From Candidatus Poribacteria bacterium (GTDB lineage: Bacteria; Poribacteria; WGA-4E; WGA-3G), in NCBI GenBank assembly GCA_012267415.1, contig JAAXGN010000044.1, positions 124,001 to 188,000 of the forward strand: a stretch of 64,000 nt of DNA. The letters are read 5' to 3'. The translations under genes and the position numbers were made by a program. Below the pieces are notes generated by a model. It was not told the DNA's origin. It saw nothing but the letters and a program-made list of their open reading frames with translations, and ran no database searches. Below are positions 25,195 to 54,388 of this stretch, in pieces (the stretch's first letter is position 1; every line of letters starts with the position of its first letter).

Positions 25195-27885
25195 ATGCGG
25201 AAATTTATTATACTTGTTTTTCTCCTATTACTTTTAAACAGCGCATATCTTTTCAGTTTCGGTGAACCGACACTCTTCTATATTTCTAATATCCTGTTAC
25301 ACTTAGTTCTCGGTATTCTATTAGTAATACCATTTAGTGTGTATCTCTATAAGACACTAAAAAATATAATGTCCCTCGGTCGCGTCAGCGTTATCTGCAT
25401 AATTGTCGGAATCGTTACAGGTGTGTGTCTGATGATTGTCGGCGCGACGACACCCTACCGTTGGATTCTTTGTACACATATCATCAGCATCAGTATAGGT
25501 AGTTTTCTGTTTTGCATTCATCTGTTGAGAGATAATACCTATCTTACGCAAAGATTCAAGACTGTCATTGTTGGGGTGTTAGTTGGTGTTGTGTTTTTCC
25601 CGATTGGTGCTAAGTTATCACAACACTATTTTCCACATGGGAACTATCTTGTTGAGAACCCTACGCTTCCTCCTACAAGTATGTATGAAGAAGGGGGTGG
25701 TCCGACTGGACACTTCTTCCCAGCTTCTGTTGAAACGGAAACTGGTAACCGCATTCCGACCGAATTCTTTCTAACTTCAGAGACCTGTGCGACTAAGGGA
25801 TGCCATCCCGATATATATAAACAGTGGAACGAATCAGCACATCACTTCTCCTCTTTCAATAACCAGTGGTATAGAAAGTCTATCATCTATATGCAGGAAG
25901 TCAACGGAATACAACCCTCAAAATGGTGCGGTGGATGCCATGATCCTGCGATACTGCTTAATGGGGATATGGATAAACCGATACGAGAGAATCTGCATAC
26001 CCCCGCAGCACAAGCAGGATTAGCATGCACTGCATGTCACTCTATTGAAAGGGTAAAGGATACGATGGGAAACAGCGGATACGTAATAAAGTATCCACCA
26101 TTGCACGATTTAGCATCAAGCAACAATCGCGTTATTCGTAGTTTGCATAATTATCTCATCCGTCTTGACCCGGAACCGCATAAGAAGAGTTTTCTCAAGC
26201 CTTTCCATCGCAACAATACTGCAGAATTCTGCTCAACTTGTCATAAGGCACATCTGGATTTTCCTGTCAATAATTTTCGCTGGGTCCGCGGGTTCAACGA
26301 CTACGATCAATGGCAAAAAAGTGGCGTTTCTCATCAAGGTGCTTTGTCGTTCTATTATCCCGATACTGCACAGAAATGTGTTGATTGCCACATGCCACTT
26401 GTGGATTCCAAAGATGCTGGAAATATAGGTGGCAAGGTACATAGCCACCGCTTTCCCGCTGCAAACACTGCACTGCCTTATGTAAATAAACATGAGGAAC
26501 AACTCCAAGCGGTGATAGACTTCCTACAGAATGATGTGATAACTTTAGACCTATTTGCTAACGGTAAACCGATACCCACAGATGGTGTTCAAGTTGCACG
26601 TGGTGAGAAACCCCTAATTGAGGTTGTCGTACGCACGCGCGGTGTTGGACATCAATTTCCCACAGGAACAATTGATGCTTTTGACATCTGGCTTGAGCTG
26701 AAGGTCACGGATGAAAATGGAAAAATCATATTCTGGAACGGCAGTATCGCAGAACCGGATGGCAACGGACCTGTTGATCCGGGTGCACACTTTTACCGCA
26801 GTTATATGCTTGATGCACACGGCAACCGTATCAATAAACGGAATGTGTGGGCAATGCGAACTGTGCTATACTCCCGAACTATACCTCCCGGTGCTGCCGA
26901 TACCGTCCGTTACCGTTTGGAAATCCCACCCGATAGTGACGGAACGCTCTCTGTTGAAGCAAAACTAAACTACCGTAAGTTCAATTGGTGGCATACGCAG
27001 TGGGCTTATGCAGGGGTTCGTGATCCTGAGCATACAGATTTAAAAGTAGACAAAGGTTATGATAATGGAAGATGGGTCTGGACAGGCGATACATCAGATG
27101 TTGCAGGAGAAATCAAAACGATTCCAAACCTACCCATTACCGTCATGGCAGATGCAAAAGCAACTCTTCATGTTAAAACGGATGTCAAACCGACAACGCG
27201 GGATGTTACTACGAGCCACGCACAACAAGACAGTACAAAGATAGCAAATGCTCGCGAAAGATGGAACGACTACGGGATAGGGCTGTTCCTACAGGGTGAC
27301 CTCAGAGCAGCACAAACTGCATTTCGGGAAGTAACTAAAATCGAACCAGATTATTTAGATGGATGGGTGAATCTGGCACGATGTAGCATAAAGGAGGGTG
27401 ACATGAAAACTGCGGAAGCAATGCTCAATAAAGCATTCGAAATTCAGCAAAAAATGATCCCTACTAATCCACATCGTGCAAAGGTTCATTACTTTTTCGC
27501 GCTCGTTCAAGAATCCTACGGCAATTACGACACCGCGATTCAACATCTCCAAAGTGCGGTAGCACAGTTTCCACGCGACACCCGTGTGCTAAATCAATTG
27601 GGGAGAATGCACTTTCTAAAACGTGAGTACGAAACGGCTTTGACACAGTTTCAGAAAACCCTCACGGTTGATCCTGAAGATTTAGATGCACATTACAATA
27701 TGATGCGTTGTTATCGCGCCTTGAAGAATCCGTCTATGGCTGCAAAGTCACATAAACTCTACCAACGATTTAAGGCAGATGAATCTGTTGATGCGATTAC
27801 AGGAATTGCTCGCCGCGCAGACCCAGATGCTAACCGAGAACGGCAACCTATTCATGAACATACGAATAGTTACGTGGTAGATTAG
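25195..27885 (+). CDS. Membrane-anchored pentaheme c-type cytochrome with TPR domain
   Basis: An 896-residue composite protein. About five hydrophobic segments occupy 1-137, so the N-terminus is membrane-embedded. The periplasmic part has five heme-binding motifs: one unusual C-x4-C-H (Cys198, Cys203, His204) and four C-x2-C-H sites (245-249, 278-282, 346-350 and 395-399). A beta-rich region follows at about 440-660, and a TPR solenoid of four or so repeats at about 690-860. This layout resembles cytochrome c552/c554-like multiheme proteins fused to a protein-binding arm. It would carry electrons to or from an unknown periplasmic partner. The ATG at 25195 has AGGTG before it. It converges with pepA at a distance of six bases. 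Confidence 0.85.
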   Translation: MRKFIILVFLLLLLNSAYLFSFGEPTLFYISNILLHLVLGILLVIPFSVYLYKTLKNIMSLGRVSVICIIVGIVTGVCLMIVGATTPYRWILCTHIISISIGSFLFCIHLLRDNTYLTQRFKTVIVGVLVGVVFFPIGAKLSQHYFPHGNYLVENPTLPPTSMYEEGGGPTGHFFPASVETETGNRIPTEFFLTSETCATKGCHPDIYKQWNESAHHFSSFNNQWYRKSIIYMQEVNGIQPSKWCGGCHDPAILLNGDMDKPIRENLHTPAAQAGLACTACHSIERVKDTMGNSGYVIKYPPLHDLASSNNRVIRSLHNYLIRLDPEPHKKSFLKPFHRNNTAEFCSTCHKAHLDFPVNNFRWVRGFNDYDQWQKSGVSHQGALSFYYPDTAQKCVDCHMPLVDSKDAGNIGGKVHSHRFPAANTALPYVNKHEEQLQAVIDFLQNDVITLDLFANGKPIPTDGVQVARGEKPLIEVVVRTRGVGHQFPTGTIDAFDIWLELKVTDENGKIIFWNGSIAEPDGNGPVDPGAHFYRSYMLDAHGNRINKRNVWAMRTVLYSRTIPPGAADTVRYRLEIPPDSDGTLSVEAKLNYRKFNWWHTQWAYAGVRDPEHTDLKVDKGYDNGRWVWTGDTSDVAGEIKTIPNLPITVMADAKATLHVKTDVKPTTRDVTTSHAQQDSTKIANARERWNDYGIGLFLQGDLRAAQTAFREVTKIEPDYLDGWVNLARCSIKEGDMKTAEAMLNKAFEIQQKMIPTNPHRAKVHYFFALVQESYGNYDTAIQHLQSAVAQFPRDTRVLNQLGRMHFLKREYETALTQFQKTLTVDPEDLDAHYNMMRCYRALKNPSMAAKSHKLYQRFKADESVDAITGIARRADPDANRERQPIHEHTNSYVVD

Positions 27886-29414: not shown

Positions 29415-29723
29415 TTATTCTGAACGGCGCATTCCCGTCAATACGACGAGGGGGTCTGTGCTTGTTACAGTCAGTGAGTGGTATGTGTTCGCTGGGACAT
29501 CAACGCGGTCACCACGTTTAACCTTGTCAGTTTCATCTGCAACTTTTACATCTGCCGTACCTGACAATACACAAACAACTTCATCATCGCTATGAATGTA
29601 ATCAAGATAGGCACCACCCGGACGACCTGACCACTGATACGGGTCATACCCTTCGGATTGCAGCTGCTTTTTAAGTTCTTCAACACTATCATGCGCTTCT
29701 AACCAACATGATTTCCATTCCAT
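29415..29723 (-). CDS. Small cupin-domain protein
   Basis: A 102-residue single-domain cupin. The two motif regions are readable as YLDYIHSDDEVVCVLSG, which has the first His and acidic residues, and GDRVDVPANTYHSLTV, which has the distal His. The DDEVVCVLSG pattern is typical of cupins that lack some metal ligands, so catalysis is uncertain. The ATG at 29721-29723 overlaps the TGA of the formate dehydrogenase gene as TGATG, so it is translated from the same mRNA. The longer open frame upstream is out-of-frame antisense-like sequence and is not part of the protein. A role connected with formate dehydrogenase maturation or regulation is only a positional inference. Confidence 0.78.
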   Translation of the reverse strand: MEWKSCWLEAHDSVEELKKQLQSEGYDPYQWSGRPGGAYLDYIHSDDEVVCVLSGTADVKVADETDKVKRGDRVDVPANTYHSLTVTSTDPLVVLTGMRRSE

Positions 29724-32452
29724 CAACCTGCTCCTTGTAATGGTTCTAATTTTACTGGACACACCTTCAGTTCGGCAGTGTGGGTAACAGGGTCGTATCC
29801 TGAGCCGGTTAGAAGGTTCACCGGCACATCCCCGAAACTGAAACTGGCAAATACCGTACCACTCGGTGATCGGTTTGTCGCCTTTACTTTTATTTTGATG
29901 CTGCCGCGTGCACTGCTCATTTTGCACCATTCACCGTCTGCCAGTTTCCATTTTTCAAGGTCTGCTGGGTTAACTTCAAGTGATTCTTCGGGCAAGAAAT
30001 AATCAATACCTTGTGCTCTCCCTGTCTGTGTGCGTGTATGATACGACTGTAGACGTCTTCCTGTCGTTAGCCAAACTGGAAAATCTTCACTTATCGTTTC
30101 AGCGGGGTCTCGGTAGTGAACATTTGAAAAGATACCTTTACCGTTGACAAATGTCCCCTCGTGCAAGCGAGGTGTACCGGGATGGTCTCTGTTCGGAACA
30201 GGCCACTGATTGTTAAATTCATCTGTCACACCCATGTCAATCCGATCCCAATCTAATCCCGCGTAAATTGGGGATAGGCTACACAGTTCGTTGAAAATCG
30301 GTTTCGGTGAGTCATAATCAAATCCGTTGAAGTCAAGTCGTTTAGCAATTTCGCTGATAATCCACCAATCCGGTCTTGCTTGACCTATAGGTTGAACAGC
30401 AGCCCGCATCCGTTGTACCCGTCTTTCTGTATTTGTGCAGACACCATCGGTTTCTCCCCATGCTGCTGCTGGGAGTACGACATCTGCAAGTTCAGCAGTT
30501 TCAGTCAAGAATATGTCAATCACAACGAGATGTTCTAAAGAACGTAGCGCATGTTCGCAATGTTCACGATCCGGATCGGATATCAATGTGTTTTCACCGT
30601 CAATAAGCATTGCATGAATGCTGTCTCCACAAAGTTCCAGCGCGGTGACTTTTGTTATACCTTTATCAAGGTCAATTTCCTTTCCATAAGCAACCTTGAA
30701 CTTCTGCTGATTCTTAGGATCCGTAACGGATTGAAAACCGGGATAATTGTTCGGCAAAGCACCGCTATCACCAGCACCCTGAATGTTGTTTTGTCCACGC
30801 ATAGGGTTAATCCCTGTCCCTTCGCGTCCCACATGTCCTGTCATCAGAGCAAGGTTGCACAGACTCTGAACATTTTCAACACCGCAGATGTGTTCTGTGA
30901 TACCGAGTGTATAGTAGATCGCACCCTTGTCCGCAGTGCCATACCAGATGGCAGCAGTTTCAATATCTCTCGCAGGAACACCCGTAATTGTTTCTGCCCA
31001 TTCAGGTGTCCATCTGCTAACATGTTCAAAGAAATCATCATATCCTATAGTTCTATTCTTGATGAATTCGTTATTAACCAGACCTTCACGAGCAATCACA
31101 TGTGCCATGCCGAGAAGTAAGGCAGTATCTGAGCCGACACGAAGTGGTAGGTAGAGATGAGACATATCCGCTAATCCGATCCGTCTTGGATCAGCAACGA
31201 TCAGTTTTGCACCGCGTGCAATTGCTTTCTTCAAACCTGTCGCTGCAACAGGATGGCATTCCGTCATGTTCGTGCCGATGCAGAAAATCACATCCGGTTT
31301 CTGCATGTCAACAAGTGGATTAGACATTGCCCCGCGTCCTATTGTCGCTGCCAGACCGGCAACGGTGGGGGCATGTCAGGCACGGCTGCAATTGTCGATG
31401 TAGTTTGTACCAAATCCTGCGCGGATAAACTTTTGCATCAGATATGCCGCTTCACTCGGCGCACGTCCAGATGCAATCCCATAAACACTATATTTCCCAT
31501 GCTTTGCGTCAACGTTTTGAAAACCCGCAGCAGCTTGATCAAGGGCATCATCCCAGGACGTTTCGTGAAGTTCACCATCATCACCACGCACAAGGGGTGC
31601 CTTTAAACGATCAGGGTGTTGAACAAAGTCATACGCGAACTGTCCCTTCACACAGAGTGCACCTTGATTAGCAGGACCATCCATTGCGGGGTGAATACCG
31701 ATAATCTTTTCGTCATGTGTAAGGATGTCTACGGAGCAACCGACACCACAATAGGGACAGATAGTGCGTGTCTTATCAATCTGCGTTTCAGGGACCGTAT
31801 CGGCTGCGCGAAGTGCCTTTTTGTCTGCCAATGCACCTGTCGGACACGTCTGGATACACTGTCCGCAGAATGTACAGGCAGAGTCCTTGAGGAGTCCATC
31901 AAATTCAGTCGTTATTTGTGTATGAAACCCGCGATGCATCACGTTAATCGCGTGGTCACCTTCCTGTTCAGCACAGACTCGCACACACCGATAGCAAGAG
32001 ATACAAAGATCGTAGTCTCTAAGGATAAATGGATTGTCATCCGCTTTGCTGCTACCCGACGTTGTCCCGTTAATGTTTGATGAATATATTTCGTACTTGT
32101 CCCGCAGGGATGCAAGTTCGTTTGAGACATATCCTCTTAACGGATGAACATCTACTTCACGATTCTCACTAATTACCATCTCAAGTAGAGTTCTACGGTA
32201 CGCTTCTATCGAGTCTGTAGACGTGCGGATTACCATGTCTGATGTAGCTTTTGTTGTGCATGATGCTACGGGATTGCGCGCACCCGCTAATTCAACAATG
32301 CACAGACGGCATCCACCGAAGGGTTCCAGTCGTGGATCATAACAGAGCGTAGGTATGTCTTTCTGATGTCGCTGTGCTACTTCAAGGATAGTTTCACCAT
32401 CCGAAAAAGTGACTTCAGTGTCATCAATCTGCATTTTATGAACGTTTCTCAC
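29723..32452 (-). CDS. Formate dehydrogenase alpha subunit, predicted selenoprotein (UGA = Sec359)
   Basis: FdhA oxidises formate to CO2 at a molybdenum or tungsten bis-MGD centre. The frame from the GTG at 32450-32452 to the TGA at 29723-29725 is continuous except for an in-frame TGA at 31376-31378. This sits in NCSRA-U-HAPTVAG, the place where FdhF-type enzymes have selenocysteine, giving 909 residues with Sec359. Domains: 2Fe-2S cluster with Cys37, 48, 51 and 65; two 4Fe-4S clusters (Cys150/153/156/160 and 193/196/199/203); the catalytic-domain cluster with Cys232, 235, 239 and 267; then the MGD domains and a C-terminal MGD-binding domain. The layout resembles the FdsA-like subunit of NAD-linked enzymes, but no NuoE/F-like genes are adjacent. 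AGGTGGG precedes the GTG. It follows the BMP gene by 11 bases and overlaps the cupin. Confidence 0.85.
31328..31378 (-). promoter_or_regulatory. Bacterial SECIS-like element for selenocysteine insertion
   Basis: Directly after the UGA (31378-31376), the minus-strand RNA can form a two-part hairpin. The inner stem is GUUGCC (31363-31358) pairing with GGCAGC (31352-31347) around the five-base loop GGUCU, giving six pairs including one G-U. The outer stem is UGCCCC (31373-31368) with GGGGCA (31333-31328). The GGUCU loop and its distance from the UGA match the Escherichia coli fdhF SECIS, to which SelB binds. The fold was found by eye only. Confidence 0.75.
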
Positions 32453-38779: not shown

Positions 38780-39175
38780 GTGGAATTAAAAATTTGCACT
38801 CTCGGAATCTTGTTCAGGAATGGAAAAATCCTGTTGGGTAAAAGAACTAAACACCGAACTTCTTATCCCAATGTCTGGGATATGATTGGTGGACACTGCG
38901 AAAATGGTGAAACACTAACACAGACCCTCATCAGGGAATTGCAGGAAGAAATCGGTGTTACACCAATTCAGTTTGAACACATCTCAACCCTATTGGATTC
39001 CAACAACGACCACACCTATCATGTATTTGTCGTAACGGATTGGAAAGGTGAACCCGAAAGTCTACAGCCAGAAGAGCACTCAATAATCGAATGGTTTGGA
39101 ATCAATGAGGCGTTGGAATTGGAACTTGCCTTACCTGAATATCGTGAATTATTCATCAGTATGGAAAACAACTGA
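38780..39175 (+). CDS. NUDIX hydrolase (MutT-like)
   Basis: This is a 131-residue NUDIX protein. The signature G-x5-E-x7-R-E-x2-E-E-x-G is complete in GGHCENGETLTQTLIRELQEEIG (about 38-60), with the metal-binding glutamates in RELQEEIG. The family hydrolyses nucleoside diphosphates linked to another group, such as 8-oxo-dGTP, NDP-sugars or dinucleoside polyphosphates, in the cytoplasm. The substrate cannot be told from these residues. The start is GTG 38780, and the preceding AAGGTAATC supplies a weak ribosome site. Neighbours are a decayed duplicate upstream and a PhyH gene downstream, with no evident pathway link. Family call secure, function open. Confidence 0.9.
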   Translation: MELKICTLGILFRNGKILLGKRTKHRTSYPNVWDMIGGHCENGETLTQTLIRELQEEIGVTPIQFEHISTLLDSNNDHTYHVFVVTDWKGEPESLQPEEHSIIEWFGINEALELELALPEYRELFISMENN

Positions 39176-39289
39176 TTATATCACACACCGATATCAACAT
39201 TGAACAGGAAAGGTTCTTTCTATCGTGTGTGAAAGCCATTATTGCGCTGCACATGTAAAATCAATTATTTAAAAACAATTGAGGGAACT

Positions 39290-40126
39290 ATGGAACAACA
39301 TAAACTTCATTATAAAATGATGAACAAATTCAATCCGTATGGAGAGACGGGAGAGCACTGGGAAGTGGACGTACATGCCACTCCCGAAGAGTTGCAAACA
39401 TTTGCTGAGATAGGCTATCTCATTCGAGAGGGACTCTTTCAAGGTAAAGCACTCCAAAAACTGCAAGATGCCTTGGGTCGTTTGGAAGATCGGGAATGGG
39501 AAAAACGAGATAGTGCTATTGCGGGAAAAAAGGGGTGGGGTTTCATCCCTCGTCATCTTATGGATAAGGATGAAGTATTTCTTGAACTCTTGAAATTCCA
39601 ACCGACTTTATCAATTGCACGAGCAATGATGGGACCACTCGTCCGTCTGCGTGGTTTAAGCGCACGTATCACATATCCGGGTGATGGTCGGGAACACCAA
39701 ACACCGTGGCACCAACACATGCGAGTGATACCAAATCCAATTCCGCCATGGTTTTCCCGTCCACACTGCATTGATTGCCTCATCTACCTTGACGATTTGA
39801 ATGAAGATACAGGAGCCGTCGCTGTTGTCCCGGGTTCCCACGACTGGTTAGAAAAATCACCACCGACTGTACACGAACCTTTAGAAGGTGAAGTCGAACT
39901 ACGGGTGAAAGCTGGTGGTGGAGTCTTGATCCACGGCAATCTCTGGCATCGGGGGCTGCCAACACTACACACCAAGCGACGCATGTTAATTTTAAGCTAT
40001 ACACCGACATGGTTGCGGAAATCGCCACACGGTGGTGCACAACCTGAAGATGGGTTAACCCACGCTTTTCTTGAAAATGCTGATCAGGAAGAACGGATGC
40101 TGTTAGGAATGGGGGGATATTCCTAA
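39290..40126 (+). CDS. PhyH-family dioxygenase with atypical metal-ligand motif
   Basis: A 278-residue protein of the phytanoyl-CoA dioxygenase family. GYLIREG opens the fold, ITYPGDG precedes the metal site, AVAVVPGSHDWLEKSP is the usual loop, and GGGVLIHGNLWHRG holds the distal His, with Arg in HTKRRM as the 2-oxoglutarate ligand. The proximal motif reads PWHQHMR: the normal H-x-D is H-x-H here, so one carboxylate ligand is replaced by His. That could alter the chemistry, or another acidic residue could serve instead. ATG 39290 has GAGGGA before it; the in-frame extension to 39242 is rejected. It is followed by a fragment of the PAP2 gene on the other strand. Confidence 0.8.
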   Translation: MEQHKLHYKMMNKFNPYGETGEHWEVDVHATPEELQTFAEIGYLIREGLFQGKALQKLQDALGRLEDREWEKRDSAIAGKKGWGFIPRHLMDKDEVFLELLKFQPTLSIARAMMGPLVRLRGLSARITYPGDGREHQTPWHQHMRVIPNPIPPWFSRPHCIDCLIYLDDLNEDTGAVAVVPGSHDWLEKSPPTVHEPLEGEVELRVKAGGGVLIHGNLWHRGLPTLHTKRRMLILSYTPTWLRKSPHGGAQPEDGLTHAFLENADQEERMLLGMGGYS

Positions 40127-52417: not shown

Positions 52418-52477
52418 TTCATTATGCTGGCACACTAATGTTGTAAGATTGCACCCGTTCCAATGAGGATACTAAAT

Positions 52478-53533
52478 ATGAAACTAAAGGATATTTCAGA
52501 ACATATTGGTGGCGAACTTCATGGGGATGGTGACATTGAAATAACGGGTGTTTCTGGCATTAAAGAAGCAGTTCCGAACCAAATTACCTTCGTCGCAAAT
52601 ACAAAATATCTGAGTGCTATCGCAACTACCCAGGCATCGGCAATAATCTTAGGACACGGTGTTTCTGGCAATGGAAAAGCCACAATCCGTGTTGACAACC
52701 CATATTGGGGATTTGTAAAAGTATTGGAATTATTTGCACAAGGAACAGAGAGAAACCAACAGACCGGTATACATGAAACAGCGATTATCGGAGAGAATGT
52801 TAAAATCGGCAAAAACGTCTCTATACATGCGCACTGTGTCTTAGAAGACAGTGTGGAAATTGGTGATAATACAGTAATTATGCCTTTAGTCTATATTGGA
52901 GAAGGGAGCAAAATTGGATGTGATGGCTTAATATACGCCAATGTAAGTATTCGTGCTGATATCATTATTGGAGATCGTGTCATTATTCATTGTGGTGCTG
53001 TCATTGGTAGTGACGGATTCGGGTTTACACCTGACCCCACAAACCATAGTCCATATAAGATACCACAAATAGGTTCTGTCGTTATTGAAGACGATGTTGA
53101 AATCGGGGCAAATACAACAATTGATAGAGCAACAATCTCTGAAACGCTCATAAAAAACGGAACAAAACTTGACAATCTTGTTCAGATTGCACACAATGTA
53201 GTTATTGGAAAAGATTGCTGTTTAGCAGCGCAAACAGGTATTGCAGGAAGTAGCCAACTGGGTGACCGTATAAACATGGCAGGTCAATCTGGTGTCATCG
53301 GACACCTAACGCTTGGTGAAAACACCGTCATCTACTCAAAAACGGCTGTCACAAAAGATATCCCACCGGGAAGTCATCTTTCTGGTATTCCCGCCCGACC
53401 CCATAAACAGGAGTTACGTTTTCAAGCATCAATCAGAAAAATGCCAGAATTACTGCAAGAGTTCAATAAACTGCAAAAACGTGTCGTGGAGCTTGAAGAA
53501 AAACTACACGAACTTGAAAAAGAAGAATCTTGA
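52478..53533 (+). CDS. lpxD: UDP-3-O-(acyl)glucosamine N-acyltransferase
   Basis: LpxD adds the second acyl chain in lipid A synthesis, using acyl-ACP. The 351-residue protein has the uridine-binding N-terminal domain (about 1-95; SGIKEAVPNQITFVAN), then a left-handed beta-helix of hexapeptide repeats (about 100-310) and a C-terminal coiled helix. QIAHNVVIG puts the catalytic His at residue 239, equal to the known Escherichia coli position. I start at ATG 52478, which has GAGGAT seven bases before it, instead of ATG 52463. It follows skp and precedes the UbiA-type gene by six bases. This shows that the organism makes lipid A. Confidence 0.93.
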   Translation: MKLKDISEHIGGELHGDGDIEITGVSGIKEAVPNQITFVANTKYLSAIATTQASAIILGHGVSGNGKATIRVDNPYWGFVKVLELFAQGTERNQQTGIHETAIIGENVKIGKNVSIHAHCVLEDSVEIGDNTVIMPLVYIGEGSKIGCDGLIYANVSIRADIIIGDRVIIHCGAVIGSDGFGFTPDPTNHSPYKIPQIGSVVIEDDVEIGANTTIDRATISETLIKNGTKLDNLVQIAHNVVIGKDCCLAAQTGIAGSSQLGDRINMAGQSGVIGHLTLGENTVIYSKTAVTKDIPPGSHLSGIPARPHKQELRFQASIRKMPELLQEFNKLQKRVVELEEKLHELEKEES

Positions 53534-53539
53534 TCTACA

Positions 53540-54388
53540 ATGAGGACGTTGTTAACGTATATTGAACTTGCAAGACCTTTGAACGGTGTGATCGCTTTTC
53601 TTTCAGCTTGGTTAGGTGGCATATTCGCGCTAGGCAGCACACTCAATTCATTTTCAGAAGTAAAATTATTATATGTCTCTATCGCATCACTGTTACTACT
53701 CTCCGCAGGCAATGCCATAAATGATTATTGTGATTACAACATCGACTGCCATAACAGACCCGATCGTCCACTCCCATCAGGTAGAATCCGTAGAAGAAAT
53801 GCACTCATATTCGCCATAACGCTTATCGGACTCGGTATGGCACTTGGCGTGTTAGTCAATTTATATGCAGTTTATGTTGCAGTACTGGTGTCTATACTTC
53901 TCGTGAGTTATGCTCTCATTCTGAAACGTACACCCATCTTAGGAAATTTAGTTGTTGGACTTCTTACAAGTCTGACATTCATTTCTGGTGGTATAGCAGT
54001 CGGTTCAGTACGTAGCACCATCATACCTGCTATTTTTGCCTTTTTCTTTACAACAGCAAGGGAGATTGTCAAAGACCTTGAAGATATTGAAGGAGATAAG
54101 AGAGAAAACGTCAAGACACTCGCCAATCTCAACCCTCGTCTGGCAATCATCATGACATTGAGTTTTATGTTCTGTGTAATCATATTTAGTCCTATCCCCT
54201 ATCTGCTCGGACTTTATCCGTGGCAATATTTAGTAACGATCATACTTGGTGTTGATCTTGTGCTTATCTGCTTAGGAATTCAACTTGTGACGAACACCTC
54301 AAAAGACGGTTATGCAAAAATACAACACTGGATGAAATGGGACATATTCGTAGGTTTAGGTGCAATCTATCTTGGAATCTTATATTAA
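53540..54388 (+). CDS. UbiA-superfamily prenyltransferase, candidate geranylgeranylglycerol-phosphate geranylgeranyltransferase
   Basis: This 282-residue integral membrane protein has eight or nine hydrophobic helices and both Asp-rich motifs of the UbiA family: NDYCDYNIDCHNRPDRP (from about residue 60) and DLEDIEGDKREN (from about residue 179). UbiA proteins transfer polyprenyl groups to quinone precursors, heme, chlorophyll or, in archaea, to geranylgeranylglyceryl phosphate (DGGGP synthase). The short ExD/PLPSGRI pattern is seen in that last branch. A GGGP-synthase-like gene 1.5 kb downstream makes the archaeal-type lipid role attractive, but menaquinone or another lipid remains possible. 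It begins six bases after lpxD. Confidence 0.7.
   Translation: MRTLLTYIELARPLNGVIAFLSAWLGGIFALGSTLNSFSEVKLLYVSIASLLLLSAGNAINDYCDYNIDCHNRPDRPLPSGRIRRRNALIFAITLIGLGMALGVLVNLYAVYVAVLVSILLVSYALILKRTPILGNLVVGLLTSLTFISGGIAVGSVRSTIIPAIFAFFFTTAREIVKDLEDIEGDKRENVKTLANLNPRLAIIMTLSFMFCVIIFSPIPYLLGLYPWQYLVTIILGVDLVLICLGIQLVTNTSKDGYAKIQHWMKWDIFVGLGAIYLGILY

Follow-up and report, generated by a model that had tools for sequence, protein, structure and literature searches.

A probable selenocysteine-type formate dehydrogenase in Poribacteria with a conserved in-frame UGA and a covarying SECIS-like hairpin

Introduction

A long minus-strand frame for a formate dehydrogenase is interrupted by a single TGA in the window, by which we mean the whole stretch of 64,000 nucleotides of poribacterial DNA analysed here. 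Is it a broken gene, two genes, or one gene whose UGA is read as selenocysteine (Sec)? An earlier note, made from the letters of the window alone, favored the last of these and pointed to a SECIS-like hairpin behind the UGA. We searched the assembly and its relatives for evidence bearing on each possibility.

Results and Discussion

Gene and reading frame

The features discussed throughout are the following:
29723..32452, minus strand: fdhA, formate dehydrogenase alpha subunit, 909 codons with one in-frame UGA
31376..31378, minus strand: UGA codon, residue 359, taken as selenocysteine
31346..31364, minus strand: SECIS-like hairpin of seven pairs, loop GGUCU at 31357-31353
29725-29723, minus strand: stop codon (TGA) of fdhA

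The minus-strand open reading frames 32452-31376 and 31327-29723 share one frame with the TGA at 31378-31376 between them, and the description of two in-register frames parted by that codon alone is borne out for 32452-29723. The start may be GTG at 32452 or ATG at codon 7; near full-length matches of relatives begin their alignments at residues 1-8. Next to fdhA lie genes for a cupin, a leucyl aminopeptidase and a Bmp-type binding protein. Around the 50 named loci, where some flanks are short, cupin was found in 34, Bmp in 34, aminopeptidase in 32 and none of the three in 14. The cupin gene (window 29415-29723, minus strand) overlaps the fdhA stop by one base (TGATG).

Enzyme family and electron partner

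Translated through the UGA, FdhA matches TIGR01591 with 734.5 bits (cut-off 666.25) over positions 1-671 of 672. Its halves taken singly reach 148.8 bits (positions 1-127) and 535.6 bits (positions 146-671), both below 666.25. The formate dehydrogenase-N alpha model (TIGR01553) gives 261.2 bits against a cut-off of 814.2, which places the protein outside that family. The domain order is an N-terminal 2Fe-2S and ferredoxin-like Fe-S region, followed by Fe4S4, molybdopterin and dinucleotide-binding domains. The enzyme had been called FdhF-type, which holds for the Sec position but not for the architecture: the protein is of the longer type, whose N-terminal Fe-S region E. coli FdhF lacks (36% identity over 695 columns). 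The best solved relative, the alpha subunit of a tungsten formate dehydrogenase (PDB 7vw6/7e5z), aligns over residues 8-908, including the N-terminal Fe-S region, and has Cys opposite residue 359.

A selenoprotein with another main family activity, nitrate reduction for example, or one running as a CO2 reductase, is a very unlikely alternative. The weaker matches to the NasC (463.5 bits) and NapA models that might suggest it lie far under their cut-offs, Fdh-alpha is the sole model to exceed its own cut-off among the ten families listed, and formate dehydrogenases head the solved relatives. Sequence does not reveal in which direction the reaction runs.

No beta subunit was found among the genes neighboring fdhA. 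Two Complex1_51K genes are located elsewhere in the genome, on contigs C28 and C69. The gene on C28 comes after one for a NuoE-like protein and resembles NuoF most closely. The gene on C69 (L171 937-2643, 568 aa) is a NuoE-NuoF-like fusion, unlinked to fdhA, that aligns with the beta subunit of the tungsten formate dehydrogenase over residues 43-568 (308.5 bits) and scores higher, up to 375.1 bits, against chains named NADH dehydrogenase, NiFe/iron hydrogenase and NfnB. We take this fusion as a candidate beta partner of FdhA and nothing firmer.

Selection on both sides of the UGA

We compared the fdhA of the window with those 46 of the 50 named loci that gave near full-length matches. In 37 of these comparisons, dS was saturated in at least one part; in the other nine it could be estimated in both, and the median dN/dS was 0.041 before the UGA and 0.032 after it, the highest value after it being 0.081. 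Two relatives at low dS (0.22-0.34) gave 0.081-0.091 before and 0.076-0.081 after. Judged from these substitution rates, purifying selection also acts downstream of the UGA.

It is highly improbable that the locus encodes two proteins, with termination at the UGA and a restart at ATG 31327. An ATG-led frame does start 17 codons behind the UGA; however, the residues between the two codons are nearly invariant in 76 distinct sequences and align with the solved and E. coli formate dehydrogenases. The break would, moreover, fall on a metal-ligating position, and two separate proteins would leave the hairpin unexplained.

Conservation of the UGA codon

A search of 97 genomes with FdhA gave matches at E <=1e-100 in 81. 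Three genomes (G047, G054, G079) were left out of the codon count because their match is a paralogue of 34-35% identity, as was G056, whose match is a fragment. The remaining 77 genomes provided 78 loci covering residue 359 (G078 gave two), the window's own included; further paralogue rows of about 33-35% identity are left out of this count. Codon 359 is TGA in 72 of the 78 loci and TGC or TGT in six. It is also TGA in 49 of the 50 named loci, a set that overlaps in part with the 78; the remaining one is fragmentary and does not include the position. Identity to the poribacterial protein is 37-44% for the six Cys copies, of which five occur in class-level relatives and one in a genome related at the level of domain only.

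In the alignment with E. coli FdhF, residue 359 falls opposite residue 140, where the E. coli genome record also has TGA, in agreement with the equivalence to Sec140 proposed before. Residue 140 of E. coli FdhF is selenocysteine. The poribacterial protein reads UHAP from the UGA onward, which fits the motif UHxP given for Sec-type FdhA in a table of PMC13188914.

An error in the single assembly is very unlikely given TGA in 72/78 and 49/50 loci, and the TGC or TGT at 31376-31378 that would have told against the note's reading is not what most relatives carry. A misread base, or a nonsense mutation recently acquired by a gene in decay, would account for a frame broken by a stop codon, but such a reading is scarcely credible when the same TGA recurs in independent records and purifying selection acts on both sides of it.

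Titles of the named loci assign 39 of 50 to Poribacteria, and every locus above 75% identity is one of these 39; on this basis the organism is taken as Candidatus Poribacteria. The other 11 (L078-L084, L092, L096, L097, L099) are titled Planctomycetota/Planctomycetes, Verrucomicrobia or a subgroup, or uncultured bacterium. Their FdhA is 66-73% identical to that of the window, more than the 37-45% of class-level relatives, a possible sign that the gene has moved between phyla or that some bins are mislabelled.

Two further loci deserve mention. One class-level relative, G078, has both a TGA-type and a Cys-type copy (L102 and L106), a natural Sec/Cys pair in one genome. In G067, the TGA copy (L110) appears as two matches in different frames around residues 375-380, which may be a frameshift or an assembly error.

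The SECIS-like hairpin

The hairpin reads CGUUGCC-GGUCU-GGCAGCG at 31364-31346 and has seven continuous pairs. It had been described as a six-pair stem at 31347-31363 with a GGUCU loop; stem and loop stand, and the pair C31364-G31346 brings the count to seven. Folding of the RNA after the UGA had been suggested as a check, with a divided outcome: the 19-mer folds at -10.1 kcal/mol (z -2.95, 1/200 shuffles as good), whereas longer stretches are no more stable than their shuffles (z -0.42 and 0.03). Since the longer folds resemble shuffles, energy alone is insufficient as proof of the hairpin. For the E. coli fdhF hairpin itself, z was -1.25, with 24/200 shuffles as good.

We therefore looked at covariation in 27 chosen sequences against 500 shuffles. 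Pairing is kept in 97.4% of cells and 23 cells have two-sided changes, neither value being reached by any of the 500 shuffles; with the partner shifted by 1-3 columns, pairing is at most 65.1%. Two further measures, the number of pairs with two-sided change and the number of pair types, do not exceed the shuffles (453/500 and 200/500 as high), since few columns vary. The covarying pairs are found at the stem base (C-G/G-C/U-A/A-U) and in the middle (U-A/C-G/G-C). Both occupy the third positions of codons, and most of the changes are therefore silent. On these comparative grounds, compensatory changes in relatives decide that the hairpin is real.

Among 76 distinct TGA sequences, all seven pairs form in 70 and six or more in 75. 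The loop is GGUCU in 71, GGGCU in four and GGUUU in one, with GG first in 76/76. None of six Cys sequences reaches six pairs; since the Cys copies encode more distant proteins as well, this contrast in part reflects divergence. Even so, four TGA copies at 41-43% identity (L102, L104, L108, L109) retain six or more pairs, the middle one being different. A second stem outside the hairpin, also proposed in the earlier note, can be drawn in the window but finds no support in the relatives: there, its columns are 84.1% paired against 83.2% in shuffles, and 98 of 500 shuffles are as high.

According to the part of PMC13188914 that gives limits for the bacterial SECIS, the loop has 3-9 nt, the upper stem has 4-16 bp and a G stands in the first two loop positions; the same part gives 16-37 nt from UGA to apical loop and a free energy <= -7.5 kcal/mol. 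The poribacterial hairpin lies within all four (5 nt and 7 bp; GG; 18 nt; -10.1 kcal/mol). An Rfam scan of the window returned no match.

The loop had also been equated with that of the E. coli fdhF SECIS. The shared part is GGUCU, which in E. coli also starts 18 nt after the UGA. The fold differs: the E. coli stem has one bulged U and closes on a GGUC loop, whereas the poribacterial stem is continuous and without a bulge. Poribacteria and their Planctomycetota- or Verrucomicrobia-titled relatives may use a fully paired SECIS, with a U-G or U-A pair near the site of the bulged U, and their SelB may then read the loop and a wobble pair rather than a bulge. We consider this idea doubtful; if true, it would be a slightly different recognition rule for SelB inside a known system.

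Selenocysteine machinery

The assembly (5.46 Mb, 170 contigs, 97.6% complete, 5.29% contamination) contains selA (523.5 bits) and selB (353.4 bits, positions 1-579 of 581), the latter with SelB-wing_2 and SelB-wing_3. A tRNA-Sec was matched with 77.7 bits over the whole model and given the anticodon TCA by ARAGORN. The assembly also contains fdhD (244.6 bits) and selD (366.2 bits; L019 1399-2472, contig C157), which has an in-frame TGA in CAG-U-ASKL and is itself probably a second selenoprotein, judging from that codon. The search for sel genes that had been recommended thus found selA, selB, tRNA-Sec and selD all present, the set that marks the Sec-decoding trait. The loci of selA, selB/selC, selD, fdhD and fdhA are on five different contigs, to be read against the 5.29% contamination of the assembly.

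As controls, 14 well-known genomes gave scores over cut-off for selA in two, selB in two, selD in two, fdhD in eight and tRNA-Sec in five. Because the tRNA-Sec gathering score (47) was exceeded in 5/14 controls, that score alone is unspecific; the poribacterial match is 30 bits above it, ARAGORN concurs, and the second-ranked match in the genome has 41.2 bits. Neither Rfam nor ARAGORN found a tRNA around selA (L001).

Among the 97 genomes, 80 have selB at E <=1e-70. It is present in 67 of the 72 genomes with TGA, and the five without it (G004, G010, G048, G053, G063) are 73-83% complete. In the five genomes with a Cys copy only, selB is present in two and absent from three; its presence in two of them means that selB alone is no predictor of a UGA in fdhA.

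A general reassignment of UGA, or its readthrough without a Sec system, would be consistent with the in-frame UGA of selD, but we give it almost no chance: fdhA itself terminates in TGA, the second in-frame UGA found lies in a known Sec family, and the full Sec gene set is present. A search of the window's genome with a model of the hairpin returned at E <=1 the fdhA site only (150 of 843 first-look candidates scored) and missed the selD UGA; the genome may hold further selenoproteins.

Proposed mechanism and significance

The organism very probably reads the internal UGA of fdhA as selenocysteine, as first proposed; the conserved UGA, the covarying hairpin and the sel genes point the same way. 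The best explanation, about which we have little doubt, is that fdhA specifies the alpha subunit of a Mo/W-type formate dehydrogenase, with Sec at residue 359, whose insertion would be directed by SelB and the hairpin. During translation, SelB carrying Sec-tRNA-Sec (anticodon UCA) would bind the hairpin through its C-terminal winged helices and, from this position 18 nt behind the UGA, deliver Sec in place of termination. Sec 359 would then serve as a ligand of the metal, the role that residue 140 has in E. coli formate dehydrogenase H. The N-terminal Fe-S region would pass electrons on, possibly to an NAD-binding beta subunit encoded elsewhere. We infer Sec insertion, metal ligation, formate oxidation and the beta partner. 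The Sec of FdhA coordinates Mo or W according to a passage of PMC13188914.

The poribacterial Sec-type FdhA is real and well supported, yet it is a common bacterial arrangement. A section of PMC13188914 describes FdhA as the most widely distributed bacterial selenoprotein family, and one of PMC1794560 (2006) counts it in 67 of 75 Sec-using organisms. SelA and SelB co-occur in the majority of sponge-symbiont bins, from various phyla, as stated in a part of PMC5649159. Since FdhA is that widespread and SelA and SelB are known in sponge symbionts, the poribacterial case belongs to a known type, and no principle is changed by it. Our searches of open-licence literature turned up no paper describing a poribacterial formate dehydrogenase of the Sec type. 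The present analysis documents such an enzyme across an uncultured phylum, warns that gene callers may split fdhA in two and brings in selenium supply as something that may bear on how Poribacteria use formate.

Other observations

Two other frames in the window were looked at. The stretch 52463-54388 was rejected as a second readthrough, being two genes with separate LpxD-like and UbiA domains, and the frame joining NUDIX and PhyH domains at 38780-40126 was taken as two neighboring genes.

The TAG stop codon of selB lies inside the tRNA-Sec gene, with a 12-nt overlap (L003 1501-1512, contig C142). We looked at 21 genomes, 17 of which have an ARAGORN tRNA-Sec adjoining selB, and the overlap was found in only two of these 17 and is, therefore, incidental. 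Contig C50 of G033 has two selB matches over cut-off, separated by about 4 kb; the second of them spans no more than model positions 1-269. Finally, the plus strand of the window has at 25195-27885 an open reading frame of 896 aa, perhaps a multihaem cytochrome, in which four or more CxxCH motifs were picked out by eye.
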